Assembly: GCA_900049755.1 (NCBI GenBank)
Contig: LT160593.1
Span: forward strand, 1,169,515-1,233,514
From: Corynebacterium provencense
Lineage (GTDB): Bacteria; Actinomycetota; Actinomycetes; Mycobacteriales; Mycobacteriaceae
Direction of reading: 5' to 3'
DNA: 64,000 nt
Shown: positions 14,490 to 61,983 of the stretch, one piece after another
Numbering within the stretch: position 1 is the stretch's first letter
Layout: each line of letters opens with the position of its first letter
The notes under the pieces: model-generated
The model's input: only the letters and a program-made list of their open reading frames with translations
What the model was told of the DNA's origin: nothing
Databases searched by the model: none
Made by a program: the position numbers and the translations under genes

Positions 14490-14650
14490 GGCCGGCCGGC
14501 GACCCCCGACATCTCCACTCTTCCCCTACACGACGCTCTTCCGACCTGGCGCCCCGCCGAACCGGGGGCAGTGCCCCAGACAAGGAGCCGGCTCCGGTCC
14601 CGCTGCCCGCGCCGGAACCACACCATCAGGGCTGTCTTTTATCCATACCG
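14490..14650. other. library adapter plus chimeric copy (assembly artefact)
   Basis: Bases 14490-14547 align with the 58-base Illumina P5/read-1 adapter; the clearest stretch is TACACGACGCTCTTCCGA, with the rest showing A-to-C and T-to-C miscalls. Bases 14548 to about 14630 are a degraded copy of 18226-18308 (3' end of the phosphotransferase-like gene). Bases 14632-14650 match the 19-base Nextera mosaic end at 14 of 19 positions. The piece looks like one mate-pair read built into the contig. The amount of native DNA lost here is unknown. Confidence 0.88.
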
Positions 14651-43695: not shown

Positions 43696-44913
43696 GTGTC
43701 ATTCCGCCTTTTCACCAGTGAGTCCGTGACCGAGGGTCACCCCGACAAGATCTGCGACGCGATCTCCGACACCATCCTCGACGCTCTGCTCGCCAAGGAC
43801 CCCACCTCCCACGTGGCCGTCGAAACTCTCGTCACCACCGGCCAGGTCCATGTCGTCGGCGAGGTCAGGACCAGCGCCTACGTCGAGATCCCGCAGCTGG
43901 TCCGGGACACGATCCGCCGGATCGGATTCACCTCCTCCGAGGTCGGGTTCGACGGATCGACCTGCGGCGTCAACGTCGCCATCGGCGAACAGTCCCAGGA
44001 GATCGGCGACGGGGTCGACACCTCCCACGAGTACCGCAACGGTGACGCCGGTGACTCGCGGGACGCCGACGACCAGGCGGGTGCCGGTGACCAGGGACTG
44101 ATGTTCGGCTACGCCACCGACGAAACCCCGGAACTGATGCCACTACCGATCGCGACCGCTCACCGGCTGTCCCGGCGGCTGACCCAGGTCCGCAAGGAGG
44201 GCATCGTCGACAATCTGCGTCCCGACGGCAAAACCCAGGTCACGTTCGCCTACGACTCCGACGGCAGGCCCCACCACCTCGACACGGTCGTCATCTCCAC
44301 CCAGCACGCACCCGAAGCGACCCAGGAATGGCTCGCCGCACAGCTGCGCGAACATGTCATCGATCCCGTCATCGAGGAGGCGGGGATCACCGACCTGGTC
44401 ACCGATGACCTCACCGTCCTGATCAACCCGTCCGGGTCCTTCATCCTCGGCGGCCCGATGGGCGACGCCGGTCTGACCGGACGCAAGATCATCGTCGACA
44501 CCTACGGCGGCATGGCCCGCCACGGTGGCGGCGCATTCTCGGGCAAGGATCCGAGCAAGGTCGACAGGTCCGCCGCCTACGCCATGCGCTGGGTCGCCAA
44601 GAACATCGTCGCCTCCGGCCTCGCACACCGCGCGGAGGTCCAGGTCGCCTACGCCATCGGCAAAGCACAGCCGGTCGGCCTCTACGTCGAGACCTTCGGA
44701 ACTGCCGTGGAGGGTCAGACCGACGAATCGATCCAGGCGGCCGTCCGCCGTGTCTTCGATCTGAGGCCCGCGGCGATCATCCGGGAACTGGACCTGCTGC
44801 GCCCGATCTACGCGCAGACTGCCGCCTACGGGCATTTCGGCCGTACCGACATCGATCTGCCGTGGGAGAGGACGGACCGCGTCGACGCACTCAGGGACGC
44901 GGCCGGCCTGTAG
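43696..44913 (+). CDS. metK: S-adenosylmethionine synthetase
   Basis: MetK makes AdoMet from methionine and ATP. The 405-residue protein has [16 protein letters not shown] at the N-terminus, the [13 protein letters not shown] signature and [19 protein letters not shown] (P-loop-like). Length is typical. The GTG follows AAGGAAGAG. The upstream McbR box indicates control by the sulfur regulon. Confidence 0.97.
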
Positions 44914-44929
44914 CACCGTCGACGAGCCG

Positions 44930-45740
44930 ATGTCCGACCCTGTCGTGGAACCACCGGTCACCGACCCCGGCTCCGGTCCTGTCACCGACCGGGTCGCCCT
45001 GCCGGTCGCCAGGGTGCTCCCCCTGCTCGGGATGCCGCACCTCGACCGACTCTTCGACTACTCCGTTCCGCCGGATCTTGACGCCACCGCCGTCGCCGGG
45101 ACCCGGGTCCGTGTACGTTTCGCCGGTCGCCTGGTCGACGCCGTCGTCGTGGAACGTCGCCGCGCGACCGAGCACGTGGGGCGCCTTGCCCCGGTGACAC
45201 GGGTCCTCGGGGAGGCCCCGGTGGTGCCCGCGCAGCTGTGGAAGCTCGTCAACCTGCTGGCCGACCGGTACGCCGGGGTACGTTCCGACATTATCCGGTC
45301 CGCGGTGCCCGCCCGGCACGTCAGTGCAGAGAAGGCCGGACTGTTCGGAAACGGGGTCAGCTGGGAGGAACTCTACGGTGACCTGGTCCCCGCACCTGAC
45401 CTTGCCGACGCCGCACGGCAGGCGGCCCTCGACGGGTGGGCCGGCTACCGTCACGCTGACAGTCTCCTGGCCGCGATACTGTCCGGCCGGGCGGCGAGGG
45501 CGTCATGGCTGTCGGCTTCTCTCTTTCTCACTCCTTTATGTGTTCTACAGACCCGGGCTGGGGGAGCAGGAGCGCGACCGGGCGCGCCGGCTGATTCTGA
45601 GGACCCCGGCGCACACCGCCTCCGGGCAGGACGCCGCCCCGCTGCTCGGCGGTGCACTCAGGGCGGCGAAGTCGGTGCGCGCCACCCGGCGTATGACCGG
45701 ACCCCTGAGGGTCGTCGTCGACCCTGTGCGGGTCGGCTAG
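44930..45740 (+). pseudogene. priA: primosomal protein PriA, centre missing (assembly collapse)
   Basis: PriA restarts replication at collapsed forks. Only two ends are present. About 194 N-terminal residues (44930 to about 45512) cover the DNA 3'-end binding domain (LFDYSVPP, GTRVRVRFAGR). The last 60 or so codons (about 45555-45740), in another frame, match the C-terminal end (ALRAAKSVRATRRMTGPLRVVVDP). All ATPase and zinc motifs, roughly 450 residues, are absent. The joint at 45517-45554 aligns with the 38-base Nextera mate-pair junction at 23 of 38 positions, so the loss is most likely a mis-join. Reading straight through gives a false PriA-Def fusion up to 46252. Confidence 0.85.
45517..45554. 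other. degraded mate-pair junction adapter in priA
   Basis: By hand alignment this stretch fits the 38-base Nextera junction (mosaic end plus its reverse complement) at 23 of 38 positions, including an exact TATGTGT-type core. It is unusually T-rich for this genome. Confidence 0.7.
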
Positions 45741-45743
45741 ACT
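45738..45743 (+). promoter_or_regulatory. -10 element of def
   Basis: TAGACT overlaps the priA stop and lies eight bases before the def ATG, compatible with a leaderless def-fmt-rsmB transcript. Confidence 0.5.
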
Positions 45744-45751
45744 GTTCCGTC

Positions 45752-46252
45752 ATGACTGCCCTTGACATCCGCCTGTTCGGCGACCCGGTCCTGCGGACCG
45801 TCGCCGAACCTGTAGACGACCCCTCCGACCCCACCCTGCGAACCCTCGTCGCCGACATGCTGGAGACCATGGACACCGCCGGAGGGGTCGGACTGGCCGC
45901 CAACCAGGTCGGGGTGACCAGGAGAGTCTTCGTCTACGACTGTGAAGGGGACCGGGGCCACGTGATCAACCCGGTGTGGGAGGCCGTCGGCCCGGAGACC
46001 CAGACCGGCAGAGAGGGATGCCTGTCGGTGCCCGGAACCGGCGGACCGGTGACCAGGGCCGCCAAGGTACGCGTCACCGGTGTCACCCTCGACGGCGACA
46101 CGGTGGACCGGGAGGTCACCGGACTGCTCGCACGGTGTGTACAGCATGAGACCGACCACCTTGACGGGGTGATGTACTTCCAGCGCATGGAACCCGAGGG
46201 CCGACGCGCCGTCATGGCGGACATCAGGACGAGTGAGTGGTTCAACCGATGA
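45752..46252 (+). CDS. def: peptide deformylase
   Basis: Def removes the formyl group from new proteins. The 166-residue product has the three metal and active-site motifs: [18 protein letters not shown] (metal Cys) and QHETDHLDG (HExxH). Length is normal. The stop overlaps the fmt start (ATGA), the usual def-fmt pairing. Confidence 0.96.
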
Positions 46253-46643
46253 GAATTCTCTTCGCCGGAACTCCGGAACCCGCGGCACACGTCCTGCGCC
46301 ACCTGCTCGGGGACTCCCCCCACGAAGTCGTCGCCGTGCTGACCCGCCCGGACGCGCGTCGGGGTCGGGGCAGGAGCCTGCACCCGTCCCCGGTCGCCGA
46401 AGTGGCCGGGGCCGCCGGCGTTCCGGTGCACCGGTGGTCCTCCCTGAAGCCCGGGGCTCCGGACGCCGACCGGATCCGCGAGATCCTGCGCGGATACGCG
46501 GACACCGGTGTGGACGCCGTCGCCGTGGTGGCCTACGGTCAGATCCTCCCGGCCGACGTCCTCGACATCTTCCGGTTCGGGTGGATCAACCTGCACTTCT
46601 CCCTGCTGCCCCGGTGGCGCGGCGCAGCACCGGTCCAGGCGGC

Positions 46644-46784
46644 GCCACCGTGAGAGAAACCCGAGACGGGGGGGAGGCGGTCCCGGGGGCCCACATAGAT
46701 CCCGGCTCACAACCCGCCCCCCGGAAACCTAAAGGCACCATTGGGCCTGTCTCTAAAACCAATGTAAATGTGAAAAAGGGACCG
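46644..46784. other. foreign segment with mate-pair junction in fmt
   Basis: Bases 46747-46784 align without gaps to the 38-base Nextera junction, with CTGTCTCT and AATGTG cores intact and A-rich miscalls elsewhere. The 103 bases before it are of unclear origin, probably a low-quality mate read; I could not place them in the window. The Fmt reading frame resumes directly after the junction. Confidence 0.8.
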
Positions 46785-47346
46785 GGTCCCCGGCGCGACG
46801 ACGTTCCGAATCGTCCCCGCCCTCGACGCCGGACCGGTGATCGGCACCGTCGAGGAAACCGTGACACCCACCGACACCGCCGATGACCTGCTGACCCGGC
46901 TGACCGTCTCCGGTGGAGAACTCCTGTCACAGTCTCTGACCGGACTGGAGTCCGGCACTGCGGTGGTGACAGAGCAGCCGGAACACGGAGCGACGTACGC
47001 CGGGAAGATCACCACCGCCGACGCCAGGGTGGACTGGCGGCGTCCTGCCGCGGTGATCCAGCGGGTCACCCGTGCACACACACCGGCACCGGGGGCATGG
47101 ACGACCCTCGACGGTGAACGGTACAAGCTGGGACTGCTCCTGCCCGTCACACAGGAGGCCGAACTGTCCCCGGGAGAGGTGCTCGCCGGAAAGTCACGGG
47201 TCCTCGTCGGAACCGGTGACGCAGCCCTGGAGATCACCAGGATCCAGCCACCGGGAAGGAAGATGATGACGGCGGCCGACTGGGCCCGTGGACGCGGTGA
47301 CCTGGGTGGAAAGGGGTCCACAGGCGAAGCCCGGACAGTTGTCTTC

Positions 47347-47400
47347 GACCCCGTACCCGACCCCGTACCCGACCGGGGTCCCGACCCCGTACCCGAGCAG
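47347..47400 (+). repeat. short tandem repeat at the 3' end of fmt
   Basis: Repeated GACCCCGTACCC-like units encode a Pro/Asp/Val-rich tail (PDPVPDPVPD) on Fmt. Similar repeat-built tails or loops occur in betT, the prepilin peptidase and the aroK-aroB linker. Confidence 0.6.
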
Positions 47401-47420
47401 ATGCCCGAAGGAGAACAGTG

Positions 47421-49061
47421 ATGGGTGGATTCCGTTCCCGGTCAGAGTCGGCGGGCTCGTCCCGGCGTCAGGACACCGGCAGCAGGGGGTACCGGCGCCG
47501 CAGCGAGTCGCACCGCAGAGAACATGAGGACGCCCGCAGGAGAACCGGCTCAGGGGACCGTGTCCGTGACGTCGTCTTCGACGTCCTGCGCAGAGTCTCC
47601 GCCGAAGGCGCCTACGCCAACATCGCCCTGCCGGAAGCACTGCGCTCGGCGAACCTCCACGGCAGGGACGCCGCATTCGCCACCGAACTGACCTACGGCA
47701 CACTGCGGATGCAGGGCCTGCTCGATGCGGTGATCGCCGATGTCGCAGGACGCCCGGTCGACAGGATCGACGCCGTCGTCCTCGATGCCCTGAGACTGGG
47801 CGCCTACCAGATCATGCGCACGAGGGTCGACGATCACGCGGCGGTGAATACCACGGTCGAACTGGTCAAGGCCAACGGTGAAGCGAAGGCGGCCGGGTTC
47901 ACCAACGGTGTCCTGCGCTCCCTCACCAGGACCCCGGCCGGCACCCTCGTTGACCGGGTGGTCGGCCGGGTGACCGATCCGCTGGAACGCGCCGCACTGC
48001 GCACCTCACACCCGGCCTGGATCGCCGAGGCGTTCAACGCCGCCCTGGGGGCCGGCCCGGGCCAGCTCTCACCGGAACTCCCCGAAGCCCTGGAAGCCGA
48101 CGACATCCGTCCCCTCGTCCACCTTGCCGCCCGCCCCGGGCAGATCAGCGGGGAGGAACTGGCCCTGGTCACCGGTGGTGAGCAGGGACGCTGGTCCCCG
48201 TACGCCGTCTACCTTTCCGAGGGGGACCCGGGGGAACTCGAACCGGTGAAGGAGGGGCTCGCCGGGGTCCAGGACGAGGGAAGTCAGCTCATCGCCCTGG
48301 CGCTGCTGCGTGCACGCGTCGACGACGACCACGGCCGTTGGCTGGACCTGTGCTCGGGTCCCGGGGGCAAGACGGCTTTCATCGCCTCCTGGGCGATGGG
48401 TGACGGTGCCGTCGTCGATGCCGTGGAACCGGTTCCCCACCGTGCCCGACTGGTGCGCAACGCCACCCGGGGACTGCCGGTGACGGTGTTCGAGGGGGAC
48501 GGACGCAGACTTGAAGAGATCGAAGGCCTGGAGATTCCGACCGCCCCGGGCCGGGGCGGGGCGGCGGAGAGCTCAGGCTATGACCCGTCTCTCTTTTCCT
48601 TCTCTCTTATCGGTTTCGATTTGAAGAGAACATGAGGACGCCCGCAGGAGAACCGGCTCAGGGGACCGGGTCCGTGACGTCGTCTTCTCGTCGACGCGCC
48701 CTGCACCGGGCTCGGAGCCCTGCGCCGCCGACCCGAGGCACGGTGGCGGAAGTCGCCGGGGGACGTCCCCGGGCTCGTGTCCCTGCAACGGGATCTGCTG
48801 CGCTCGGCCCTGCGTGCCACCCGGCCGGGCGGTGTGGTGGTCTACTCGACCTGTTCGCCCCACCCCGCAGAGACCCGGGAGGTCGTCCTGTCAGTTGCCG
48901 AGGAGACCGGTGCTGTCGTCGAGGACGCCACCGCCCTGTTCCCCGAGCTGACAGGGGAAGGGGAGCGGGAGTCAGGAACTCTGGACTCCGCCCCGTTCGT
49001 CCAGCTCTGGCCGCACCGGCACGGCACCGACGCAATGTTCTTCGCCGTACTGCGTCGCTGA
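47421..49061 (+). pseudogene. rsmB: 16S rRNA m5C967 methyltransferase, interrupted by artefact
   Basis: RsmB (Sun/Fmu) methylates C967 of 16S rRNA. The N-terminal part has the NusB-like RNA-binding domain (VRDVVFDVLRRVSAEGAYAN) and the AdoMet site LDLCSGPGGKTAFIASW. The C-terminal part has VDAPCTGLGALRRRPEARW and VYSTCSPHPAE, with the two catalytic cysteines. Bases 48585-48686 (102 bp) between them are foreign and include a stop; removing them restores a frame of about 513 residues. The start is ATG 47421, after GGAG and overlapping the fmt stop. Confidence 0.9.
48585..48686. other. junction-like piece plus copy of rsmB 5' end (artefact)
   Basis: The segment 48625 to about 48686 repeats 47517 to about 47578, near the start of the same gene, with one mismatch. 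The preceding 40 bases are T-rich and contain CTCTCTTAT, a weak match to a Nextera junction. This is the pattern of a chimeric mate-pair read. Confidence 0.82.
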
Positions 49062-49092
49062 CCGGCGCGCTGACCGGAGCGGAAGCGGTCGG

Positions 49093-51031
49093 TCAGTACA
49101 CGTCGCGGACGTACCGCTTCTCTTTCTTCATACGGGCCAGATACTCCTGGGCCGCGTTCTCCGAACCACCCGACTGCCCGGCGATGACGTCCAGCAGGGC
49201 GGTCTCGACATCCTTGGCCATGCGTGAGGCGTCCCCGCAGACGTAGAAGTAGGCCCCGTCCTCGAGCCAGCGGTAGAGCTCCTCCGCCTCCTGTCTCATC
49301 CGGGTCTGCACGTACACCTTCTCCGCCTGGTCCCGGGAAAAGGCGAGCGACAGTTTCGTCAGCACGCCACGTTCCGACAGTCCCGTCAGCTCCTCCTCGT
49401 AGATGAAGTCGGTGGCGCGGTGCTGGTCGCCGAAGAACAGCCAGTTGGAACCCGTGGCACCGGATTCCGCCCGCTCGTGGAGGAAACCCCGGAACGGGGC
49501 GATGCCGGTACCGGGGCCCACCATGATCACCGGTCTCGAACCGTCCTCCGGGACGCTGAATGCAGCATTGGGCTGCAGCCAGATTCCGGTCAGGTCACCG
49601 TCGGCGATACGGTCGGAGAGGTAGGTCGAGCACACTCCTCCGTGGCTGCGGGCACCGGGGCCGCTGCTGTGCCTGACCGAGGCGACGGTGAGGTGTATCC
49701 GGTCCGGGCTCGCCAACGGTGACGAGGAGATGGAGTACTGACGGGCCTGGAGAGGACGCAGCAGTTCCAGCAGTCGTTCAGCCGTGAAACGTACCGACGG
49801 GTTCTCTTCGAGCAGGTCAAGGATGTCACGTCCCCACAGGTAGGAGTCCAGGGCGTCCCGGTCGTCACGGCGGATGACGTCTGCGAGAACTCCTTCGGGT
49901 GCGGCGTCCGCGACCGCGGTGATGAAGTCCCGTCCCGGTGTGCGGATCTCCCGGGAGGTCAGCACCGTGTCGAACAGTGTCCCACCGCCGTCACCCGGGG
50001 AGTCCTGCGAGCCGTCGAGCCCGAGACGACCGAGGACCGCTCCGACGAGTTCCGGGTCATTGACCGGCATGACCGCGAGAGCGTCCCCTGCGGTGTAGGT
50101 GATCCCTGAGTCTGCGAGGTCGAACTCGTAGTGGTGGATCTCCTTGGCACTGCCGGGGGCGGACAGGCGACGACTGGCGGCGAGTGCGGCGGGGAAAGGA
50201 CTCTTCCGGCTCCATTTCGGACCCGTGGACCTGCGCTCCTGTGCACTTCCGGTCCCCGCCCCCGCACCGGCAGGTGGCGCTCCGGCGGCACCGGCGGGAG
50301 CCCGCCTCTTCTATACATCTCGAAGTGTATAAGAGACAGATTCGGGGCTCCTCGTACACCTTCCCCCCCTGGCCCCCGGAAAAGGGGAGGGGCCGGTTCG
50401 CCAGCACGCCACGTTCCCGCCGGCCCGTCAGCCCCTTCGCAGGTGGCGCTCCGGCGGCACCGGCGGGAGCTTCGGCGACGACTGCCGCGACCGCGGCGTC
50501 GATCCACCGTGCGGCGCAGTCCTCGTAGTCGACGTCGCAGTCGACCCGGGCGGTGAGGCGACGGGCACCGAGCTGCTCCAGTCGGATGTCAATGTCACGG
50601 CCGGCCTGGCAGAAGTCGTCGTAGCCGGAGTCACCGAGGGCCAGGACCGCGAAACTGAGGTGTTCCAGACGCTGCATGTCAGGGGAGGACAGGGCCTCCC
50701 AGAACATCTCCGCATTGTCCGGCATGTCCCCCTCACCGTAGGTGGAGGTGACGATGAGAACATGACCTGCGCCGGAGGTGAGGACACCGGTGCCGGCACT
50801 GTCCAGTTCACTGACGTTGGCACCCAGGCCGGAGGCGCGCAGTCCTCCGGCGAGCTGGTCGGCGAGGTCGGAGGAGTTTCCGGTCTGTGACCCGTAGAGC
50901 ACCTCGACGGTGAGCTGCGCGGCGGGCGCCTGGTAGCGCTCGCGGCCCAGGTCCAGTCCGGCGAAGAACCCGTCGAGCCAGGTCTGCTGTTCCACCGAGA
51001 ACGGGGCCCCGGTGGGAAGTCGGAGTGTCAT
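49093..51031 (-). pseudogene. CysJ-type diflavin reductase, interrupted by artefact
   Basis: The repaired protein is 589 residues, close to CysJ. The FMN flavodoxin domain comes first (VLYGSQTGNSSDLADQL, TSTYGEGDMPDNA). After an Ala/Pro/Gly-rich linker follow the FAD domain (RQYSISSSPLASP, GVCSTYLSD) and the NADPH domain (GPGTGIAPFRGFLHERA, FYVCGDASRMAKDVE), ending RYVRDVY as CysJ does. A 169-bp duplication-plus-adapter at 50271-50469 shifts the frame; deleting it leaves 1770 bp, exactly 590 codons. Its ATG overlaps the stop of the glutamate synthase gene (ATGA). Its usual role is passing NADPH electrons to sulfite reductase, but no cysI is near, so delivery to glutamate synthase is the contextual inference. 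Confidence 0.88.
50301..50439. other. mate-pair junction adapter plus degraded local copy
   Basis: Bases 50302-50339 match the 38-base Nextera junction at 32 of 38 positions, including an exact GTGTATAAGAGACAG. Bases 50340 to about 50435 are a degraded copy of about 49298-49397. A 30-bp direct repeat flanks the insert (50271-50300 and 50440-50469), the sign of an overlap join. The net insertion is 169 bp. Confidence 0.95.
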
Positions 51032-54000
51032 ACCTCAGCTCCCTTCATCTCCCGCCACCCTGCGACAAGGTCGTCGAGGGAGGCGTTGGCGATAGCTTTG
51101 TCGATCCGGGTGTCGTCCAGGCGGGCACAGTTCTTCAGGTCCTGGTGCATGATCCACCCGTAGGTTGCGGGGGACACGGTGCCCCGCACGTTACGGCGTT
51201 CCAGGGACGCCTTGTAGTCCCCGAGCCGTTTCGTGGCGATGAGGACGGCCAGCTGCTCGTCGTCGAGCGAGTCCATGGAGTCGCGGAGGTAGCGGACGAC
51301 CTTCTGCATCACGAAGAAGTCCTCGGTGAGGATCAGTTTGCGGGTGGCGTCGTCGATACGTGGGTCGCCGGGGTCGACCGCGCCGGTGACCCGTTCACGG
51401 GCGAACTCCCGGGCGACGTTGAGAATTGTGTACGAGGCGATGAGACCGAACATGGTCGCGGCCCCCTCGGGTGAGGTGTCACCGGCACCCGGCACCCTGC
51501 CTCCTGCGACGACCCTCCGGTCCCGGTAGTCGGTCTTGAACGCATGCAGCCGGTCGGTCGCCACGGCGGTGGCCAGTTCGTCGAGGAGTTCCTTCCTGCC
51601 GGCGGCGGCGAGGATGGCGTCGGCGTCCTGGTAGAGCAGCAGTGCCCGGGGCATACCGCAGACGATGTGCGTCCGGGTGTTCTCCCAGTCCTCCCGCAGC
51701 CGGGTGGCCAGGGCGGACCCTGTCGCCCCGATGTGCATGTCGAGGAGCTGGAGCACCGTGGCCTCGTGGAAGGGTTCCGCATCGCACAACGGGAAGGTGA
51801 CCAGGGAATCGTGGCTGGCGATCTCCGGGACCCTGCCGTCGGGATCGTACTGGTAGAGGAAACCGCCGGACATGCCGTTGCCGAGGCCCTTGCCCACCGA
51901 CCCGAGGTTCAGGACGGTGCCGTTGGTCATGTACTCGGCACCGAACTCGCCGAAGCCCTCGACCACGGCCGTCGCACCGGAGTTGCGCACGGCGAAACGG
52001 TCGCCTGCCTCACCCTCGACGAAGAGTCGCCCACCGGTCGCCCCGAAGAGCGCGAAGTTGCCGATGAGGACATTGCCTCCGGGATCGGGGGAACCTCCGC
52101 CGGGGGAGCGGACGACCACGGTCCCGCCGCACTGGCTCTTGCCGACCCCGTCGTTGGCGGTGCCGGTGTGCTCCAGGACCATGCCGTCACTGCAGAACAC
52201 GCCGTAGGACTGTCCGGCTGCGCCGGAGGTACGTACGGTGACCGTTCCCTCGTCGAGGAAGGCACGGCCCCGGTCGTCCCGGAGTGTGGCGGGGAGTGCG
52301 TCGACCTCTGCTGCGGTGAGGGCGGGACCGGTTCCGACCTCCGCGGAGTTGGAGTGGTTGAGGAGGCGTTCGATGTCGACCGCGAGTTGTCCGCCGACGG
52401 ACTTGTCCCAGTTGTGCAGGACGATGTCCTCGACGGTGACGTTGCGTTCGCCACGGTCGACGAGTGCCTCACGCACGACCGTCAGCAGGTGGTCGTCGGT
52501 GGAGAAGTTCTTCTCCAGGTACACCGGGTCGGTGACCTTCTTCTCCGGGACGAGGGCGAGCATCTTCCGCAGGTCGAGGCGTCCGACTGAGGCGGGGTGC
52601 TCCAGCAGCTGGAGCAGGTCGGAACGTCCGCGTGCCTCCCGCAGGGAGTGCAGTCCCAGCCGGCCGAGGATCCCCCGGACATCGTGGGCGATGTTGAGCA
52701 GGTACTGGGCCAGGGCACGCGGATCACCGTTGAACGCCTCCGCGTTGGTGGTCAGTCCCGCAGGGCATTTGATGTTGCAGTTCTTCGCCATGACGCAGCG
52801 CAGCATCATCAGGGCGGTGGTGCCGAACTCGAAGGAGTCGCCGCCGAGGAGGGCGGAGACCACGACGTCGCGCCCGGTCTGGTGGGCACCGGAACAGCGC
52901 AGGACGACCTTGTCCCTCAGCCCGTTGACCATCAGAGCCTGATGGACCTCGGCGATCCCGATCTCGGCGGAACGGCCGGCGTACTTCAGACTGGTGACCG
53001 CCGCCGCCCCGGTACCGCCGGTGTTGCCCGCGACGTTGATCACGTCCGCCCCTGCCTTCGCCACACCCACCGCGATCGTGCCGATGCCCTCGGAGGAGAC
53101 GAGCTTGACGATGACCCGGACGCGGGCGGCCTTGCAGTCGTGGATGAGCTGGGCGAGGTCCTCGATGGAGTAGGTGTCGTGGTGGGGAGGAGGGGAGACA
53201 AGTTCAATGCCGGGGGTCCCGCCACGTGCCGCGGCGATGTCCACGGTGACCTTCGCCGCGGGCAGCTGTCCGCCCTCGCCGGGCTTCGCGCCCTGCCCGA
53301 TCTTGATCTCCAGCTCCTCGAGCTGGGGGTCGGCGAGGTAACCGGCCCAGATCCCGAACCTTCCTGAGGCGAACTGCTTGATCCTCGATCCGCGGATGGT
53401 CCCTGCCCGTGAGAAATGCTCGCCGCCCTCACCGCAGTTCGACATGCCGCCGACCATGTTCGTGCCGTGGGCGACCGCCTCATGGGCGGTGGCGACGAGA
53501 GCACCGTGGCTCATCGCCCCGGACGCCAGCGTGCGGGTGATCTCGTGGGCGGGCTGGACCTCCGACAGGGCAAGACTCGGCGGTGCCGGACGCAGCATAC
53601 CGAGGAAGCGTGCAGCCCGGCCGTGGGCGCTGACGAGCAGTTCAGCTGCGGAGATGCGAACGCCCAGCACGGCGTCCCCGAACGTCTCACGGAACCACAC
53701 GGCGAGTTCAGCGTGACCGCCGAGACGTCCCTCCGGGTCGGTGAGCACCAGTGCCCAGGTGTCTGTGCCGGCCGGGCTGACGTCGAGTCCGCGGACGCAG
53801 ATCGAGTCATTTCCTTCCAGAGAGAAGGTCCCCAGCTGGCGGTCGAAGTCCTCTGACAGCCGCATACCGGTGACGTCGGCGGGGAGGGCGAGGATGTCAC
53901 GCAGGGCGGAAGGACGCCGTGCCCGCTCCGCCTTGGTGGTGGAGACGAAGTCGCGGTAGCCCGGGGTGACCTTGAATGAGTCGATCTGTTCATCGGTGAG

Positions 54001-56685
54001 GCGTCCGAAGCCTGCGTTCGTGTAGGCGGAGTCGGTGATCCCGAAGGCGTCCCTGAGCTGGCCCAGAGTGAGCAGACGCAGCTCATCCCCGACATCGTCC
54101 CGGTTACTGTCCCGGGCATTGTCGCGGGCACTGTCCCCGGCGACGGTGGCGTCCTTCCCGCTGCCTGACCGGGCGGCCGTGGCCGCCGGCGGGACGGTCG
54201 GGGAGGGCAGTGCCAGGGGTTCGTCGGTCAGACCGGTGAACCCGCGCACCGCACTCGTGCCGAAGGAGTGGCCGGCGCCTTCCGACCGTTCCTTGAACAG
54301 TCCGAGCAGAGGAATGTCGGAATCCTCGGTGATCGAGGCGGCACGCCGGTGCCATTCAGTGGCCGCCTCGGCGATGCGGCGGAAGCCCACCCCCCGGACC
54401 GGGGCGTCCATGTGCGGGAAGCACCGGGCGAGGGCAGGGTCACGGGTGTCGAGGTAGTTCGGCTCGAAGAACTCCCCGCCGATGTAGCTCTCCACGGTGC
54501 ACAGGCCGACCCGTCCCATGGTCTTCCCGAGCTGCTTGAGTGCGGCCTTACGGAACCGGTCGAAGGCTCTGTCTGTCTCCGTGTACTCACCGGCGGGACC
54601 CGTCGGAGCCGGATACTTCTCCTCTGCCCGCAGACGGGCGGAAAGGCTGTACACGGCGGCGGCGCCGAAACCGAGGGCGGAGGCGATGTGGTGGGAGCTG
54701 GGCAGCTGACCGGAGTCGGCGATCACGGACACGCGCATGCGCAGGCCGTCGGCGATGAGCCGCTGGTTCACCGCAGAAACGGCGAGCAGCAGGGGGACCG
54801 GGGCGTGACCGGTGTCCACTGAGCGGTCGGAGAGCACGGCGATGCCGCCCTTCTCTGCCGCGAAGCGGGCGACGGCGTCACAAAGGCGGTCGAGGGCGTC
54901 GGTGAGGGAGTCGGCGTTGGCGTCCGGGTCCCCGGCGACCGGCTCGTAGAGCAGGTCGAAGCGACGCAACGGCACCAGGTTCTGCTCCCGCAGGCGCAGC
55001 ATGTCCAGATGGGACAGGATCGGGGACTCCACGATGATCTGGTGGGTGGGTTCGCGCGGGTCCTCGGTGTCCCTGCCGTCCGGCTTGGCACCCAGGGCGA
55101 CCCGGAACGTCATCCCGTCAGCCTCCCTGATCGAGTCCAACGGCGGATTGGTGACCTGGGCGAAACGCTGCGAGAAGTACTTCGCCATCCCGCCCTCGGT
55201 GTCAGACAGGGCGTTGATCGCGTTGCCGTACCCCATCGCAGAGATCCGCTCCGCGCCGTTGGCCAGCATCGGGTCCATCATGAACCGGAAGCTCTCCTGG
55301 TTCATCGAGTAGGCCACGAACCGCCCGGCCAGGGACAGGTCACCCTGGTACCCGAGAGTGCTGGTGCCGCGTTCCAGACCGGTGACCGGGATGTCCCGGA
55401 TGTCGGTACGGGCGGACGAGAGCAGGGACGCGTAGTCCCGGCGGGAGGCGAGCTCTTCGAGGGTCTCCCGTGTCCGCCGGATCTGACCGGTCCGGTGGTC
55501 CAGGATGAGCATGCCGCCTGCCTCGATCCGGCCCCGGTGGAGGACCTCGTCGGGCTCCGCCTCGAGCTGTCCCGCCTCCGAGGAGACCATGAGGTACTCG
55601 GCCGTCTCGATGCTGCGCAGGGGACGCAGCCCGAGACGGTCCAGGCGGGCGCCGACGACGTCGCCGTCGTTGAAGATCACGGCCGCCGGGCCGTCGTTCT
55701 TCTCCTCGTACAGGGAGAAGTACTCCAGCATGTCCCTGACCGGCTCCGGGAGTGAGGTGTCGTTCTCCCAGGCGGGGGGCATCAGTGAGACCACGGCCTC
55801 CACGATGTCGAGACGGTCGTCGAAGACCCGGGACTGCAGGGTCTGGTCGAGACGGGAGGAATCCGACTGTCCGGGTGGGCGGATGATGTGACGCTGGCGT
55901 GAGGCCGCGGCAGCCTCATCACTGATCCGGTTCTTGCGGTCCGTGTTGAGCTCGCCGTTGTGCGCCATGAGACGGAACGGCTGCGCCATCGACGGGTGCG
56001 GTTCCGTGTTCGTGGAGAACCGGGTGTGGAAGTACATGGTGCGCACACTGTGCGCAGGATCGGTGAGGTCGGCGAACCAGGGGATGACCTCGTCGGCGTT
56101 GAGCCTCCCCTTGAGGACCTGGGTGCGGGTCGACAAGGACAACGGATACAGGCCCCGGAGACCGGGACGCGAGTACGCCTCCTGCTCGATGCGCAGCAGT
56201 GCCGAGTTCGCCGCACGGTCTGCGGCGCCGGCGGACATGCCGGAGGGGACGGTGAAGATCCACTGCAGGATCGGCAGCTGGTAAGCCAGTGCCGCCGGAC
56301 GGACCGCCGACGGGTTGACGGGCACCTCCCGGATCTTCACCACCTCCAGCCCCTCGGCCTCGAGAGCGGATCCGATGAGGTCGCGGGCGTCACCGGTGTG
56401 CCCCGGTTCTTCGGGCATGAAGAAATTACCGACGCCGAAACGCCGCTCCTCGAGGGGGGTTCCGGTGACGGCGGAGAAGAATTCCACGGACAGGTCGATG
56501 TTCACCCCGGCGCCGTCGCCGACGCCTTCGGAGGACATGCCGCCCCGGTGGGGGATGGCGCAGAGTGCGCGGTGGCCACGGTCCAGGACGTCGTGGGTGG
56601 GGACGCCGTCCTTACGTGTGAGGAATCCGACGCCGCAGGAGCTGTGCTCGCGGGACGGGTCGTACAGGCCGAATGTCGAACTCAT
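51028..56685 (-). CDS. gltB: extended glutamate synthase large subunit
   Basis: This 1885-residue protein is a GOGAT large subunit, normally about 1510 residues. In order: class II glutaminase with the catalytic Cys in SSCGVGF (Cys17; mature N-terminus after processing in known members); central domain (about 440-800; YFSQRFAQVTNPPLD); a low-complexity linker (about 826-868); an unrecognised insertion (about 936-1040); the FMN barrel (about 1045-1430; GGMSNCGEGGEHFSR, AGADVINVAGNTGGTGAA); Fe-S cysteines 1297, 1303 and 1307; the GXGXG domain (about 1480-1640; VRNSGATAVVEGFGE); and a C-terminal extension of about 190 residues with no family I recognise. It lacks an adjacent gltD and is coupled to a CysJ-like reductase. 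The frame is intact and artefact-free. Confidence 0.9.
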   Translation of the reverse strand: MSSTFGLYDPSREHSSCGVGFLTRKDGVPTHDVLDRGHRALCAIPHRGGMSSEGVGDGAGVNIDLSVEFFSAVTGTPLEERRFGVGNFFMPEEPGHTGDARDLIGSALEAEGLEVVKIREVPVNPSAVRPAALAYQLPILQWIFTVPSGMSAGAADRAANSALLRIEQEAYSRPGLRGLYPLSLSTRTQVLKGRLNADEVIPWFADLTDPAHSVRTMYFHTRFSTNTEPHPSMAQPFRLMAHNGELNTDRKNRISDEAAAASRQRHIIRPPGQSDSSRLDQTLQSRVFDDRLDIVEAVVSLMPPAWENDTSLPEPVRDMLEYFSLYEEKNDGPAAVIFNDGDVVGARLDRLGLRPLRSIETAEYLMVSSEAGQLEAEPDEVLHRGRIEAGGMLILDHRTGQIRRTRETLEELASRRDYASLLSSARTDIRDIPVTGLERGTSTLGYQGDLSLAGRFVAYSMNQESFRFMMDPMLANGAERISAMGYGNAINALSDTEGGMAKYFSQRFAQVTNPPLDSIREADGMTFRVALGAKPDGRDTEDPREPTHQIIVESPILSHLDMLRLREQNLVPLRRFDLLYEPVAGDPDANADSLTDALDRLCDAVARFAAEKGGIAVLSDRSVDTGHAPVPLLLAVSAVNQRLIADGLRMRVSVIADSGQLPSSHHIASALGFGAAAVYSLSARLRAEEKYPAPTGPAGEYTETDRAFDRFRKAALKQLGKTMGRVGLCTVESYIGGEFFEPNYLDTRDPALARCFPHMDAPVRGVGFRRIAEAATEWHRRAASITEDSDIPLLGLFKERSEGAGHSFGTSAVRGFTGLTDEPLALPSPTVPPAATAARSGSGKDATVAGDSARDNARDSNRDDVGDELRLLTLGQLRDAFGITDSAYTNAGFGRLTDEQIDSFKVTPGYRDFVSTTKAERARRPSALRDILALPADVTGMRLSEDFDRQLGTFSLEGNDSICVRGLDVSPAGTDTWALVLTDPEGRLGGHAELAVWFRETFGDAVLGVRISAAELLVSAHGRAARFLGMLRPAPPSLALSEVQPAHEITRTLASGAMSHGALVATAHEAVAHGTNMVGGMSNCGEGGEHFSRAGTIRGSRIKQFASGRFGIWAGYLADPQLEELEIKIGQGAKPGEGGQLPAAKVTVDIAAARGGTPGIELVSPPPHHDTYSIEDLAQLIHDCKAARVRVIVKLVSSEGIGTIAVGVAKAGADVINVAGNTGGTGAAAVTSLKYAGRSAEIGIAEVHQALMVNGLRDKVVLRCSGAHQTGRDVVVSALLGGDSFEFGTTALMMLRCVMAKNCNIKCPAGLTTNAEAFNGDPRALAQYLLNIAHDVRGILGRLGLHSLREARGRSDLLQLLEHPASVGRLDLRKMLALVPEKKVTDPVYLEKNFSTDDHLLTVVREALVDRGERNVTVEDIVLHNWDKSVGGQLAVDIERLLNHSNSAEVGTGPALTAAEVDALPATLRDDRGRAFLDEGTVTVRTSGAAGQSYGVFCSDGMVLEHTGTANDGVGKSQCGGTVVVRSPGGGSPDPGGNVLIGNFALFGATGGRLFVEGEAGDRFAVRNSGATAVVEGFGEFGAEYMTNGTVLNLGSVGKGLGNGMSGGFLYQYDPDGRVPEIASHDSLVTFPLCDAEPFHEATVLQLLDMHIGATGSALATRLREDWENTRTHIVCGMPRALLLYQDADAILAAAGRKELLDELATAVATDRLHAFKTDYRDRRVVAGGRVPGAGDTSPEGAATMFGLIASYTILNVAREFARERVTGAVDPGDPRIDDATRKLILTEDFFVMQKVVRYLRDSMDSLDDEQLAVLIATKRLGDYKASLERRNVRGTVSPATYGWIMHQDLKNCARLDDTRIDKAIANASLDDLVAGWREMKGAEV

Positions 56686-56776
56686 GAACGGGTTGATCTT
56701 TCGCCTCGGGGTACCCGGTCAGCGGCAACCGCTTGTGGCGGAGTTCTGCGTGACTGCCAGGTGTGCCATTGCTCTG

Positions 56777-56795
56777 GTCAGGTTAGACTAACCGA
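56777..56795 (-). promoter_or_regulatory. DtxR-like box on the gltB promoter
   Basis: The 19 bp TCAGGTTAGACTAACCGAT match the DtxR consensus TTAGGTTAGCCTAACCTAA at 15 of 19 positions, with a perfect 6-bp inverted core (GGTTAG/CTAACC). On the minus strand the core contains TAGTCT (56789-56784), which with TTCGAT (56813-56808) at 18 bp spacing forms a promoter for gltB with a leader of about 90 nt. DtxR is the iron-sensing master regulator of corynebacteria. The direction of control is not known from sequence. Confidence 0.7.
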
Positions 56796-56953
56796 TCCGT
56801 ATCGTGAGATCGAATCGAACATCCCGACGAAATAGCAGGGTAACGTGTGCGAAATATGACCGAAACAATGTGGACGGGGAGAGGTGCCCAAGAGACTGCC
56901 GGCGACCGCCGGGCCGCCGCCGACCGGCGGCCGGGGCGTGTCCGGCGTCGTAC

Positions 56954-56959
56954 TAAGAT
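56954..56959 (+). promoter_or_regulatory. -10 element of rpe
   Basis: TAAGAT (in TACTAAGAT) lies seven bases before the rpe ATG, so rpe is probably transcribed without a leader. Confidence 0.6.
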
Positions 56960-56966
56960 CACCTGC

Positions 56967-57638
56967 ATGAACCGACAGACGCTGGTCGCGCCCTCCATCC
57001 TCGCCGCCGACTTCTCCGATCTCGCCGGAAGTGTCGCACAGGTCCCGGGGGCGGACTGGCTCCACATCGACATCATGGACAATCACTTCGTCCCCAACCT
57101 CAGTTTCGGTCTCCCCGTCGCCGAGGCCGTGCGCACGCACACGGACCTGTTCACCGACGTGCACCTCATGATCGAGAACCCGCAACGGTGGGCCCCGCTC
57201 TACGCCGCCTTCGACAGCGTCACCTTCCACCTCGAGGCGGTGGAGGACGTGGCGGCCGCCACCGCCCTCGCCGACGAACTGCACCGGGCCGGGACCCGCG
57301 CCGGGGTGTCGGTGAAGCCGGGGACACCGGTGGAGCCGCTCCTCGACAGTCTGGCGTCCTTCGACGTCGTCCTGGTGATGAGTGTCGAACCCGGTTTCGG
57401 CGGCCAGGCGTTCATGCCGGAGGTTCTCGGCAAGGTCCGGGCACTGCGATCGCGGATAGACGCCGGGTCCCTGTCGACCCTGGTCGAGATCGACGGCGGT
57501 ATCAGCGTGGAGACCGCGGCGGCCGCCGGGGCTGCCGGGGTGGACGTGCTCGTCGCAGGGTCCAGTGTCTTCGGCTCGGACGACCCCCAGGCTGCAGTGG
57601 ACGCCATCCGGGCCTCCGCCGCGGAAGCCCGGCAGTGA
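56967..57638 (+). CDS. rpe: ribulose-phosphate 3-epimerase
   Basis: Rpe interconverts ribulose 5-phosphate and xylulose 5-phosphate; ribulose 5-phosphate is a precursor of riboflavin. The 223-residue TIM-barrel protein begins VAPSILAADFSDL, and has LHIDIMDNHFVPN, VHLMIENP, VLVMSVEPGFGGQAF and EIDGGIS, with the catalytic aspartates and metal histidines. The ATG is set by the -10 box. It starts the riboflavin cluster; its stop overlaps the ribD start. Confidence 0.95.
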   Translation: MNRQTLVAPSILAADFSDLAGSVAQVPGADWLHIDIMDNHFVPNLSFGLPVAEAVRTHTDLFTDVHLMIENPQRWAPLYAAFDSVTFHLEAVEDVAAATALADELHRAGTRAGVSVKPGTPVEPLLDSLASFDVVLVMSVEPGFGGQAFMPEVLGKVRALRSRIDAGSLSTLVEIDGGISVETAAAAGAAGVDVLVAGSSVFGSDDPQAAVDAIRASAAEARQ

Positions 57639-58750
57639 CCGGCCCTGCAGTGACCGGCCCTGCAGGACACGGACCGGTCGGACAGGCCTGTTCCGGACGC
57701 CCCGACCCCTACCTCCGGCTCACCGGCGACCCCGGGATCGCCCGGGCCCTGGCCGCCGCTGATGCCGCCGGGCAGGAGGTGCGCGGCACAACCTCGCCCA
57801 ACCCACCGGTGGGGGCGGCGATCCTCGATTCCGCCGGTACCCTCGTCGCGACCGGTGCGACCAGTCCCGTCGGCGGTCCCCACGCCGAGGTCAACGCCCT
57901 CACTGCAGCGGGACCGGCAGCCCGGGGCGGCACGGCCGTGGTCACCCTGGAACCCTGCAACCACACCGGTCGGACCGGCCCCTGCACCCGTGCACTGCTC
58001 GACGCCGGGGTCGCACGGGTCGTCTACGCCTTCGCCGACCCCGGGGACGTGGAGGGAGGCGGGGCCGACTATCTGCGTGACCACGGGGTCGAGGTCACCG
58101 GACCGCTGGTCACCTCCGCAACGGACCTGTCCGGGGTCCCCCGGTTCAGTGTGGAACCCTGGCTGGTCTCACGCAGGCACGGCCGTGCCCACCTCACACT
58201 GAAGTTCGCCGGGACGCTCGACGGTTTCGCCGCAGCCACCGACGGAACCTCGCAGTGGATCACCGGGGACAGCGCACGGGCCCGCGTCCACCTCGACCGG
58301 GCCCGCCGTGACGCCGTGATCGTAGGGACAGGGACGGTGCTCACCGACAATCCCCGCCTCACGGCACGGCTGCCCGACGGCAGCCTGCGTGACCGGCAGC
58401 CGACCCGGGTGGTGCTCGGACGGACGTCGCTTCCGCAGGACGCCGCGGTCCTGCCTGCCCTGCGGTACGACGGGCACGACCCGGAGGCCGTCCTGACGGA
58501 CCTGGCGGCCAGGGGCCTGGTCGATGTCCTGGTCGAGGGAGGTCCGCACCTCGCGGCGTCCTTCATCGCCGCAGGCATGGTCGACGAAGTCGACGCGTAC
58601 ACGGCGCCGGCGCTGCTGGGGGCGGGCGTGCCGGTCGTCGCACCCGACCCGGCCACAGCCACCACCGTTGCGGGAACCCGGAGGCTCATCCTGCGGTCCG
58701 TGGAGATCCTCGGCGGGGACATCCTCACCGTCGCCGGCACACATCCCTGA
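57635..58750 (+). CDS. ribD: bifunctional riboflavin deaminase/reductase
   Basis: RibD deaminates and then reduces the pyrimidine intermediate of riboflavin synthesis. In the 371-residue product, the deaminase zinc site is GGPHAEVNAL and EPCNHTGRTGPCTRAL, after TTSPNPPVGAAI. The reductase domain follows (LKFAGTLDGFAA, ITGDSARARVHLDRARRDAVIVGTGT, VLVEGGPHLAASF). The GTG at 57635 overlaps the rpe stop (GTGA). A second in-frame GTG is at 57650; the first 25 residues are a repeat-derived tail. Confidence 0.93.
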   Translation: MTGPAVTGPAGHGPVGQACSGRPDPYLRLTGDPGIARALAAADAAGQEVRGTTSPNPPVGAAILDSAGTLVATGATSPVGGPHAEVNALTAAGPAARGGTAVVTLEPCNHTGRTGPCTRALLDAGVARVVYAFADPGDVEGGGADYLRDHGVEVTGPLVTSATDLSGVPRFSVEPWLVSRRHGRAHLTLKFAGTLDGFAAATDGTSQWITGDSARARVHLDRARRDAVIVGTGTVLTDNPRLTARLPDGSLRDRQPTRVVLGRTSLPQDAAVLPALRYDGHDPEAVLTDLAARGLVDVLVEGGPHLAASFIAAGMVDEVDAYTAPALLGAGVPVVAPDPATATTVAGTRRLILRSVEILGGDILTVAGTHP

Positions 58751-58838
58751 CCGGCAGTCGTCCCGGACCGGGGCACCGGACAGTCGCCGCCGCCTCCACC
58801 AGATGAACCCGGACGACAGGCGGGAAGCCGACGTGCCC

Positions 58839-58844
58839 TACACT
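58839..58844 (+). promoter_or_regulatory. -10 element of riboflavin synthase gene
   Basis: TACACT lies seven bases before the ATG at 58852. The 101-bp gap after ribD shows no FMN-riboswitch-like structure that I can recognise, so the ribC-ribAB-ribH group may start from this leaderless promoter. Confidence 0.55.
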
Positions 58845-58851
58845 GACTGCC

Positions 58852-59532
58852 ATGTTCACTGGAATCGTCGAGGAGACGGGCACCGTCGCAGCCGTGGAGC
58901 CCACAGCCGACGCCCGACGTCTCCGGATAGCCTGCAGAACCGTCGTCGGGGACGCCGTCCACGGTGCATCCGTCGCGGTCAACGGGGTCTGCCTGACCGT
59001 CACCGATTTTGACGCCTCCGGTGACAACCCCGGATTCTGGGCGGACTGCATGCAGGTCACCCTCGACTACACCACCGTCGGCGACCTCACCGTCGGCGAC
59101 CGGGTCAACCTGGAACGGGCGGTCCCTGCCGGAGGGCGTCTCGGCGGACACATCGTGCAGGGCCACGTCGACGGGACCGCCGTGCTCGAGTCCCGTACCC
59201 CCGGCAGTGAGTGGGAGATCCTCCGCTTCAGGCTCGAGGACCCGTCACTGGGCAGGTACATCGCCAAGAAGGGAAGCGTCGCGGTGAACGGGACGTCACT
59301 CACCGTGGCCGAGATCGGACCGGTGACCGAACCGTGGTTCGAGGTGTCACTGATCCCGGCCACCCTCGCCGGTACTGTCCTGGGTGACCTGCAGGTCGGT
59401 GACCGGGTCAACATCGAGTGCGACGTGCTCGCGAAATATCTCGAGCGGCTCGTCGGGGCGTCCCCCTCCACGACCGGCACAGGCACAGATAATGCCGGCA
59501 CCGCAGGTACGGAGGTTCGTCACGGTGAGTGA
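58852..59532 (+). CDS. ribC: riboflavin synthase alpha chain
   Basis: This enzyme (ribE in E. coli, ribC in corynebacterial usage) dismutates two lumazines to riboflavin. The 226-residue protein begins [10 protein letters not shown] and has the two lumazine-binding repeats, with VNGVCLTV and [12 protein letters not shown] at equivalent places and [14 protein letters not shown] in the middle. Its C-terminus overlaps the ribAB start by 8 bp. Confidence 0.95.
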
Positions 59533-60853
59533 GTCCACGGCCCGAACCTCCCTGCTCGACCCCGTCGAGGACGCGATCGCCGACATCGCGGCAGGCAAGG
59601 CGGTCGTCGTCGTCGACGACGAGAACCGCGAGAACGAAGGGGACATCATCTTCGCCGCGGAGAAGGCGACCCCCGAACTCGTCGCCTTCACCGTGCAGCA
59701 CTCCTCGGGGTACATCTGCGCCACCCTCACCGACGAGGACGCCGACCGGCTGGGACTGCCTCCCATGGTCGCGCGTAACGAGGACGTGCGCGGCACCGCC
59801 TACACCGTCACCGTCGACGCCGCAGAAGGCGTGACCACCGGAATCAGCGCCACCGACCGTGCCACCACCATCCGCAGGCTCGCCGACCCCGCCTCAGACA
59901 GGGCGACCTTCCACCGGCCCGGCCACGTGGTGCCGTTGCGGGCCCGGGCCGGCGGTGTCCTCGAGAGGGTCGGTCACACGGAGGCGTCAGTGGACCTGGC
60001 GAGGGCCGCGGGACTTCGTCCTGTCGGAGTGCTCTGCGAGGTCGTCTCCACCGAAGACCCGACCGGCATGGCGAGACTTCCGGAACTGCGCCGCTTCTGC
60101 GACGAACACGGGCTCTCCCTGATCTCCATTGAGCAGCTCGCCGAATGGCGCAGGGTGAACACCCCGGTGGTGACCCGTCAGGTCGAGACTCGGCTGCCCA
60201 CCAGTCACGGAGAGTTCCGTGCGGTGGCCTACCGCGGCGTCATCGACGGTGTCGAACACGTCGCCCTCGTCGCCGGTGACCCGTCCTCCCACGACGGTGA
60301 AGACGTGCTGGTCCGGGTTCATTCGGAATGCCTCACCGGTGACGTCTTCGGTTCCCTGCGCTGCGACTGCGGCGAACAGCTTCACGTGGCGATGGACCGC
60401 ATCGCCGAATCCGGCAGGGGAGTGCTCGTGTACCTGCGCGGTCAGGAGGGCCGGGGGATCGGACTGCTGCCGAAGCTCACCGCCTACAACCTTCAGGACC
60501 GGGGACTCGACACCGTGGACGCCAACACCGCCCAGGGCCTGCCGGTCGACTCGCGCGAATACAGCGCGGCAGCCCAGATCCTCCGTGACCTGGGGGTCAG
60601 GTCGGTGGCACTGCTGTCCAACAATCCGGCGAAACGTCTCGACCTCGAACGGCACGGCGTGTCCGTCTCCCGTCGGGTGCCGATCGATCTTCCGCCCAAT
60701 CCTGAGAACGAGTTCTACCTCCGGACCAAGCGTGACAGGATGGGGCACCAGCTCGACTCCCTGACCGACAGGTTCCCGGAACCTGCCCCGCACCCCGGCA
60801 CGCCGGGTGCCGGGGCACAGCCCGGTGCCGCACGTCCCGCCCGCACCGACTGA
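59525..60853 (+). CDS. ribAB: bifunctional DHBP synthase / GTP cyclohydrolase II
   Basis: The 442-residue protein carries both entry reactions of riboflavin synthesis. The N-terminal RibB part has [19 protein letters not shown] and [12 protein letters not shown]. The C-terminal RibA part has the zinc site [20 protein letters not shown] and [10 protein letters not shown]. The GTG at 59525 follows GGAGG and overlaps ribC. A Pro/Gly/Ala tail of about 25 residues ends the protein. ribH follows after 65 bp. Confidence 0.95.
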
Positions 60854-60918
60854 GACCGCTTCCGACGACCATTCCGGACGACCATTCCCGTCCACCGACC
60901 CTTCTACGAGGAGCTCCC

Positions 60919-61401
60919 ATGTCCGCCGACGGCATCGCCGACATCACCCTGAAGCCCGGCTGTGGAGACGGGTACCGGATCGCCGTCGTGTCGGCGTCCT
61001 GGAACGCCGACATCACCGACCGGCTCCACGCCCACGCCGTCTCCACACTGAGGGAGCTCGGCGTCCTCGTCGACGACTGGCGTGTCGTCGGATGCATGGA
61101 ACTTCCCGTCGTCGTCAAGGCTGCCCTGCAGACCCATGACGCGGTCGTCGCCAACGGGTGCGTGATCCGTGGGGACACCGCCCACTTCGACTATGTCTGC
61201 CGTTCGGTGACCGACGGACTGACCCGTGCCGCCCTGGACTCGGGCAGACCGGTGGGCAACGGAGTTCTCACCGTGGAGACGCTGGAACAGGCCGTGGAAC
61301 GTTCCGGTGTGCCCGGTGCGGTGGAGGACAAGGGTGCCGACGCCGCCCGTGCCGCCCTCCACACACTGCTCGTCCTCGACGACATCGGAACCCGGGGGTA
61401 G
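60919..61401 (+). CDS. ribH: 6,7-dimethyl-8-ribityllumazine synthase
   Basis: RibH forms lumazine from the RibB and RibD products. The 160-residue protein has [22 protein letters not shown]-like [29 protein letters not shown] and [15 protein letters not shown] with the usual catalytic His. A GAGGAG site precedes the ATG. Confidence 0.96.
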
Positions 61402-61437
61402 GCAGGTCCGGGTTAGGCCGGCGACGGCGCCCCGGGG

Positions 61438-61443
61438 TAACGT
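61438..61443 (+). promoter_or_regulatory. -10 element of the membrane/PH-like gene
   Basis: TAACGT lies eight bases before the GTG at 61452, giving a leaderless transcript and fixing the start. Confidence 0.5.
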
Positions 61444-61451
61444 GGGCCGAC

Positions 61452-61970: not shown

Positions 61971-61983
61971 GCGGGGACCTCAG

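Follow-up and report, generated by a model that had tools for sequence, protein, structure and literature searches.

A glutamate synthase paired with a CysJ-like diflavin reductase: a candidate iron-sparing GOGAT in Corynebacterium and other bacteria

Glutamate synthase (GOGAT) is an iron-rich enzyme through which much of the nitrogen in amino acids is assimilated. The GOGAT subunit contains FMN and a [3Fe-4S] cluster, whereas the cofactors of its partner GltD are FAD and a pair of [4Fe-4S] clusters. Beside this NADPH-dependent GltB-GltD enzyme (PDB 7mfm, 6s6s, 2vdc) stands the ferredoxin-dependent GOGAT (PDB 1llw, 1ofd), which works without GltD. Known iron-sparing responses turn glutamate synthase down. 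In B. subtilis, the iron-sparing sRNA FsrA targets gltAB (PMC7430163, excerpt), and S. aureus gltB2 is a predicted target of IsrR, with gltB2 mRNA stability unchanged (PMC9410917, excerpt). GltB also decreased under metal-induced iron starvation in another bacterium (PMC9938188, excerpt).

Here we describe a GOGAT gene coupled to a gene for a CysJ-like diflavin reductase in Corynebacterium provencense. The window, which is the whole stretch of DNA that was analysed, spans 64,000 nt of a genome of 3.08 Mb in 22 contigs. The first-pass annotation of the window had suggested that the GOGAT draws its electrons from a diflavin reductase, and this suggestion is well supported by comparison with relatives, in which the two genes stay linked and, in two gltD-less metagenome-assembled genomes (MAGs), occupy the slot of gltBD. 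A literature search limited to glutamate synthase/GOGAT and iron regulators returned no description of a GOGAT that is diflavin-driven or controlled by DtxR/IdeR. We consider it likely that the pair is an NADPH-dependent, iron-sparing GOGAT of a distinct family, which in many Actinobacteria would serve as an iron-starvation isozyme beside gltBD. If true, this reading would add one more class to the textbook GOGAT types and would correct such names as 'glutamate synthase-related protein' for the one gene and 'sulfite reductase subunit alpha' for the other; if flavins replace the iron-sulfur subunit, it would also show how cells continue nitrogen assimilation on little iron.

The diflavin-linked GOGAT and its partner gene

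The GOGAT large subunit of 1885 residues reported by the first-pass annotation corresponds to an open reading frame at 51028..56685 on the minus strand, in which Pfam recognised GATase_2, Glu_syn_central, Glu_synthase and GXGXG, i.e., the glutaminase, central, FMN and GXGXG domains of the GltB-type architecture. Cys17 is the probable nucleophile. Three cysteines expected to bind the cluster (C1297, C1303 and C1307) are spaced as CX5CX3C, and all three are kept at this spacing in 81 of 81 diflavin-linked GOGATs, unlike the CX5CX4C of both E. coli GltB and the canonical GltB encoded elsewhere in the same genome. Retention of the cluster cysteines suggests that the enzyme would be iron-sparing rather than iron-free. 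The motifs GEGGE, QGAKPGEGGQLP and PPPHHD are likewise present in 81 of 81 family members, and CGVGF is present in 80 of them.

Two regions set the family apart from canonical GltB. The first is an insert at residues 810-1030 (53596..54258, minus strand), which comprises 221 aa as opposed to 45 aa in the canonical GltB of the same genome and amounts to roughly 190 aa across the family (186-221 aa in 39 measured members). Pfam reported no domain in the insert, and PDB chains matched it only at E 0.027 or worse, none of them convincingly. The second is a C-terminal extension at residues 1685-1885 (51031..51633, minus strand), which is roughly 195 aa long in the family (188-214 aa in 39 measured members, as opposed to 30 in the genome's own canonical GltB) and matched neither a Pfam family nor a PDB chain by sequence. 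On the NCBIfam model NF008730, the window GOGAT scored 987.5 bits, which is below the cut-off of 1047, while the canonical GltB of the same genome scored 1603.7. Diflavin-linked GOGATs were separate from canonical GltB with a support of 91 in a tree in which two of the seven canonical rows (Ancylobacter, Mangrovicoccus) are mis-picked antisense open reading frames that are to be ignored. Judged by these sequence features, the GOGAT of the pair is a separate family. The 15 proteobacterial GOGATs form a single group in the tree, and given this grouping we do not claim frequent transfer across phyla.

These features place the pair beside, rather than within, the known systems. With GltB-GltD it shares the four core domains, the three cluster cysteines and, presumably, NADPH as the donor; it differs in having a diflavin partner instead of GltD, in its cysteine spacing, in the insert and the C-terminal extension, and in falling below the NF008730 cut-off. 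With ferredoxin-dependent GOGAT it shares the core domains and the lack of GltD, but its GOGAT is longer, is linked to a dedicated diflavin reductase gene and has no ferredoxin loop. Residues 912-932 of 1llw_A, which we take to be the ferredoxin loop in the FMN domain, have no counterpart between residues 1093 and 1094 of the window GOGAT. As far as its sequence tells, the pair is a glutamate synthase in kind, and it lacks defining features that were tested for both known classes.

The first-pass annotation had proposed a search for the same pair across Actinobacteria, and the pair was indeed found there and in Pseudomonadota as well: a diflavin reductase frame follows the GOGAT gene in every one of the 80 relatives fetched, which were the best-matching of 327 and include loci from both Actinomycetota and Pseudomonadota. 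The two genes overlap or abut in 54 of the 80, a count that rests on a mechanical choice of start codons, and otherwise lie at most 65 nt apart; three of the reductases are truncated where a contig ends. Over 78 loci, distances between GOGATs correlate with those between reductases at an r of 0.96 (best of 1000 permutations, 0.13), a value to which the shared species tree contributes too. The FAD motif RxYS and the NADPH motif GPGTGxAP[FY]R are present in 77 of 77 complete reductases, and the FMN P-loop is present in 76. The diflavin tree compared the GOGAT-linked reductases with three long outgroups. Plasmids also carry the module, as 9 of 46 matching plasmid records contain a copy that spans 80% or more of the query; of five plasmid regions viewed, four were annotated and showed the reductase directly downstream in every case, and the fifth was without annotation.

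Among the fetched relatives, those closest to the window pair come from an uncultured Corynebacterium MAG and from C. variabile, at 87-88% identity. Consistent with the first-pass annotation, neither gltD nor a gene for the sulfite reductase hemoprotein was seen nearby when open reading frames of at least 150 aa within 44000-62000 were surveyed by eye. That annotation had also asked whether a separate gltBD or cysI exists in this genome, and both do: canonical gltB and gltD, and cysI, are encoded elsewhere. It had further counted a normal gltBD elsewhere, combined with genetic evidence that the reductase serves CysI only, against its proposal; the normal gltBD is indeed present, and it makes the pair a second GOGAT in this organism. 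The claim that the pair interrupts an rsmB-rpe neighbourhood also held, as an insertion is supported for Corynebacterium: of 9 Corynebacterium genomes that lack the pair, 8 have rpe directly after rsmB (for the ninth, rpe was not matched within the approximately 3 kb fetched), and the pair lies between the two genes in the window and at four other loci (L102, L103, L008 and L009). Matches to a profile of the family-specific C-terminal region were rare: 6 genomes among 201 from Corynebacterium and 1 among a sample of 198 Actinomycetota, and both counts include the genome of the window itself.

In the mechanism that we propose, NADPH would reduce the FAD and then the FMN of the CysJ-like reductase, which would form a complex with the GOGAT subunit. 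The FMN domain of the reductase would then hand electrons to the [3Fe-4S] cluster and onward to the FMN of the GOGAT subunit, which would yield two glutamates from glutamine and 2-oxoglutarate. With a diflavin protein as the partner instead of GltD, whose two [4Fe-4S] clusters would no longer be needed, NADPH would remain the donor and the iron demand of a protomer would fall by about 8 of 11 atoms. In many Actinobacteria, Corynebacterium included, this second GOGAT would be repressed by a DtxR/IdeR-type regulator and used in iron starvation, such that a low-iron cell would switch to the cheaper GOGAT instead of turning the enzyme down.

Iron-box-like sites and neighbouring genes

An iron-box-like site of the DtxR/IdeR type, ATCGGTTAGTCTAACCTGA, lies at 56778..56796 on the minus strand, 111 nt before the GOGAT start codon, and matches 15 of 19 positions of the 19-bp sequence that we take to be the DtxR/IdeR consensus and used for scoring. 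Its core, GGTTAGNCTAACC, occurs once in the assembly, and a single site in the assembly lies within three mismatches of the consensus; both are the window's box. At the same position, the closest relatives (L006 and L007) score only 12/19, which speaks against an iron box there, and L008 scores 14/19.

The most serious alternative is that the pair is an NADPH glutamate synthase for which iron is incidental, i.e., a general or nitrogen-regulated second GOGAT. We consider this alternative unlikely based on how boxes are distributed, although part of that distribution favours it. Boxes of at least 13/19 were found upstream of 28 of 55 actinobacterial copies, of which 17 reach 14 and 10 reach 15. 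None of the 16 Curtobacterium copies has a box at 13/19, which is expected if iron is incidental, as are the scores below 13/19 of 11 of the 39 other actinobacterial copies (including L030, L043 and L075). Against this alternative, the count of 28 of 39 outside Curtobacterium, in which boxes of related genomes are not independent, far exceeds the 0.8-0.9% observed for random windows. A comparison within the same genomes points in the same direction: among 18 genomes, at least 13/19 was reached by 13 promoters of the pair and by 3 promoters of canonical gltB. The three canonical promoters, each at 13/19, belong to two mycobacteria and one actinomycete MAG (the genomes of L064, L065 and L068), where TTAGGTTCGACTAAGTTGG-like sites (13/19) precede canonical gltB at L140, L141 and L142.

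Proteobacterial copies gave a different picture, with a DtxR-like box of at least 13/19 in 0 of 26 upstream regions, a result that is expected because other iron regulators operate there. The Fur and Irr consensus strings as we presumed them to be gave nothing convincing in these copies, in which no iron box was recognised. The excerpts of PMC4618611 and PMC5863699 held no box sequence usable for these upstream regions. Separately, six rhizobial upstream regions (L047, L050, L051, L053, L055 and L063) share an AGGTCA(N)TGAC-like element, possibly a regulator site, and in these a TTGACT box immediately precedes the start.

Neighbouring genes suggest a link to iron at a subset of loci, which also weighs against iron being incidental. 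HemS-like matches were found at most 240 nt downstream of the pair at 29 of the 80 loci (at two loci the match is only a short fragment), and flavodoxin was found in 2 of 80. Pfam placed HemS over its cut-off at L052, L071, L077, L085 and L113, the last being a plasmid copy from Tsukamurella, and the fragment at L062 had no Pfam match; the downstream frames of L011 and L014 that were run against Pfam are in a frame other than that of the HemS-like match and carry no weight. At three loci, the HemS/ChuX-like third gene overlaps the reductase gene (L052:15152-15988, L068:15189-16028 and L065:10067-10894) and encodes a cysteine-rich start, MCTDGRRCExCP. Downstream of the pair on a plasmid of Ketogulonicigenium vulgare come a hypothetical gene that Pfam did not match, an AraC gene and an operon for siderophore uptake. 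Ten flanking frames from five proteobacterial loci included three that belong to transport types used for iron (FecCD and Peripla_BP_2 at L085, and a TonB receptor at L076). The plasmid neighbourhoods of Neorhizobium, Shinella and Tsukamurella contained no siderophore genes, and those of Neorhizobium and Shinella are not iron-related, which is what an incidental role of iron would predict.

Probable replacement of GltBD by the pair

We also examined whether genomes that bear the pair retain gltBD. Canonical GltB and GltD were both absent at their cut-offs from 4 of 36 pair-bearing genomes (G011, G030, G031 and G033), which comprise an isolate draft of Mycetocola reblochoni and three MAGs, so that the MAG status of 3 of the 4 qualifies this count. 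G030 also holds short GOGAT-like frames of 679 and 517 aa. The best GltD score among the four was a GltD-like match of 165.8 bits in G031, and gltD at E 1e-60 had no match in G031 or G033. In a few genomes, the pair's GOGAT is the only full-length GOGAT found.

The gene order aroB-GOGAT-diflavin-hemE was found at L080 and L083, which belong to two gammaproteobacterial MAGs (SAR92-clade and Porticoccaceae) without gltD and without canonical gltB. At the same place, 8 of 8 relatives for which the locus was fetched have aroB-gltB-gltD-hemE. Among 29 genomes around the SAR92 MAG, itself included, gltD was matched at E 1e-60 in 23, one over the curated cut-off; the 6 without a match comprise the two pair-bearing MAGs and four others (G435, G438, G439 and G444). 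The pair thus sits at the gltBD locus in genomes that are left without gltBD, and this exchange provides the best, and in our view strong, support for the pair taking over the role of GltBD. As a natural experiment, the swap between aroB and hemE makes the replacement directly testable.

This exchange also bears on a second alternative, in which the GOGAT-like subunit uses glutamine and electrons from the diflavin protein to aminate another acceptor, e.g., in siderophore- or heme-linked metabolism. The family-specific insert and C-terminal extension would fit such a role, as would the siderophore and HemS-like neighbours in a subset of loci. Three results, however, make this alternative quite improbable: the pair occupies the gltBD locus upstream of hemE in the gltBD-less genomes described above; within the FMN-domain stretch 1031-1380, 142 of 250 family-invariant residues are identical to those of the genome's own canonical GltB; and, among 32 flanks compared, no gene other than an ABC ATPase and the HemS-like one was shared by more than four loci.

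Returning to the iron-sparing glutamate synthase that we prefer, we lean, by a modest measure, towards a broader version of it. The pair would represent a third, flavin-linked GOGAT class and a patchily distributed, sometimes plasmid-borne iron-sparing module, in which the diflavin protein docks on the insert and the C-terminal domain that are specific to the family and passes electrons straight to the [3Fe-4S] cluster. Iron starvation would induce this module, which in some Gammaproteobacteria could displace gltBD permanently.

The reductase gene and assembly artefacts in the window

The pair described by the first-pass annotation was borne out in its overlap, as ATGA at 51028-51031 joins the GOGAT stop to the reductase start, but not in its single intact reductase, which in the window consists of two open reading frames in different frames with an artefact between. 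The N-terminal part (50057..51031, minus strand) encodes the flavodoxin (FMN) domain (Pfam Flavodoxin_1, E 1.1e-29) in a frame that ends in the artefact, and the C-terminal part (49093..50070, minus strand) encodes the FAD- and NADPH-binding domains (FAD_binding_1, NAD_binding_1) in another frame. The two pieces were searched separately, and the intact copies of relatives were used for analysis.

Like CysJ, the reductase has flavodoxin, FAD and NADPH domains in that order, and the L006 copy is 40% identical to E. coli CysJ; unlike CysJ, its partner gene encodes GOGAT rather than CysI. That the reductase serves CysI and adjoins GOGAT by chance is highly improbable: its CysJ-like domain order, the naming of the plasmid copies as sulfite reductase flavoprotein or subunit alpha, and the scores of the L006, L031 and L057 reductases above the equivalog cut-off of 432 on the looser model NF004859 'sulfite reductase subunit alpha' (453.3, 444.3 and 480 bits) would fit such a role, but the linkage to diflavin-linked GOGATs holds throughout the relatives fetched, the same three reductases fall below the equivalog cut-off of 668.15 on TIGR01931 cysJ (576.8, 577.5 and 609 bits), and the genome's own cysI, as judged by eye, adjoins another, FprA-like reductase gene, cysH and cysD, with no cysJ. 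Elsewhere in the genome, beside a nirB-like gene, a single frame joins a nitrate reductase to a CysJ-like diflavin protein (G000:C1:809079-812861, equivalent to L094 3080-6862), so that here too an enzyme of nitrogen assimilation is supplied by a diflavin protein. The L006 reductase is 42% identical to this fusion, but the fusion is a molybdenum enzyme that catalyses a different reaction.

The artefact in the reductase gene (50302..50436, minus strand) comprises two inverted Nextera mosaic-end remnants, which lie back-to-back at 50302-50339 with 4 and 2 mismatches, and a degraded copy at 50340-50436 of the gene's own 3' part (78/97 identical to 49298-49394); a 32-nt exact duplication is also part of it. 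The reductase is intact in the relatives at L006 and L102, and the damage belongs to the assembly and need not exist in the cell. The first-pass annotation had noted neither this damage nor the iron-box-like sites. Across the whole assembly, 54 mosaic-end remnants with 2 mismatches each were listed, of which 20 form 10 back-to-back pairs, and the reversed control gave 0; none of those listed had 0 or 1 mismatch. Such remnants can break or extend genes in the assembly. Other sites in the window, besides that at 50321, lie at 46747-46784 and possibly at 14632 and 56880, with 4-5 mismatches. Further irregularities were observed at lower window coordinates than those of the pair. The priA frame at 44930-46252 is chimeric, with approximately residues 193-643 of the C. 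variabile protein unmatched, and continues into an apparent peptide deformylase gene. The rsmB region at 47418-49052 matches the C. variabile protein over almost its full length, with an open reading frame that stops early at 48635, and an odd AT-rich stretch at 48580-48640, near this early end, may also be an assembly artefact.
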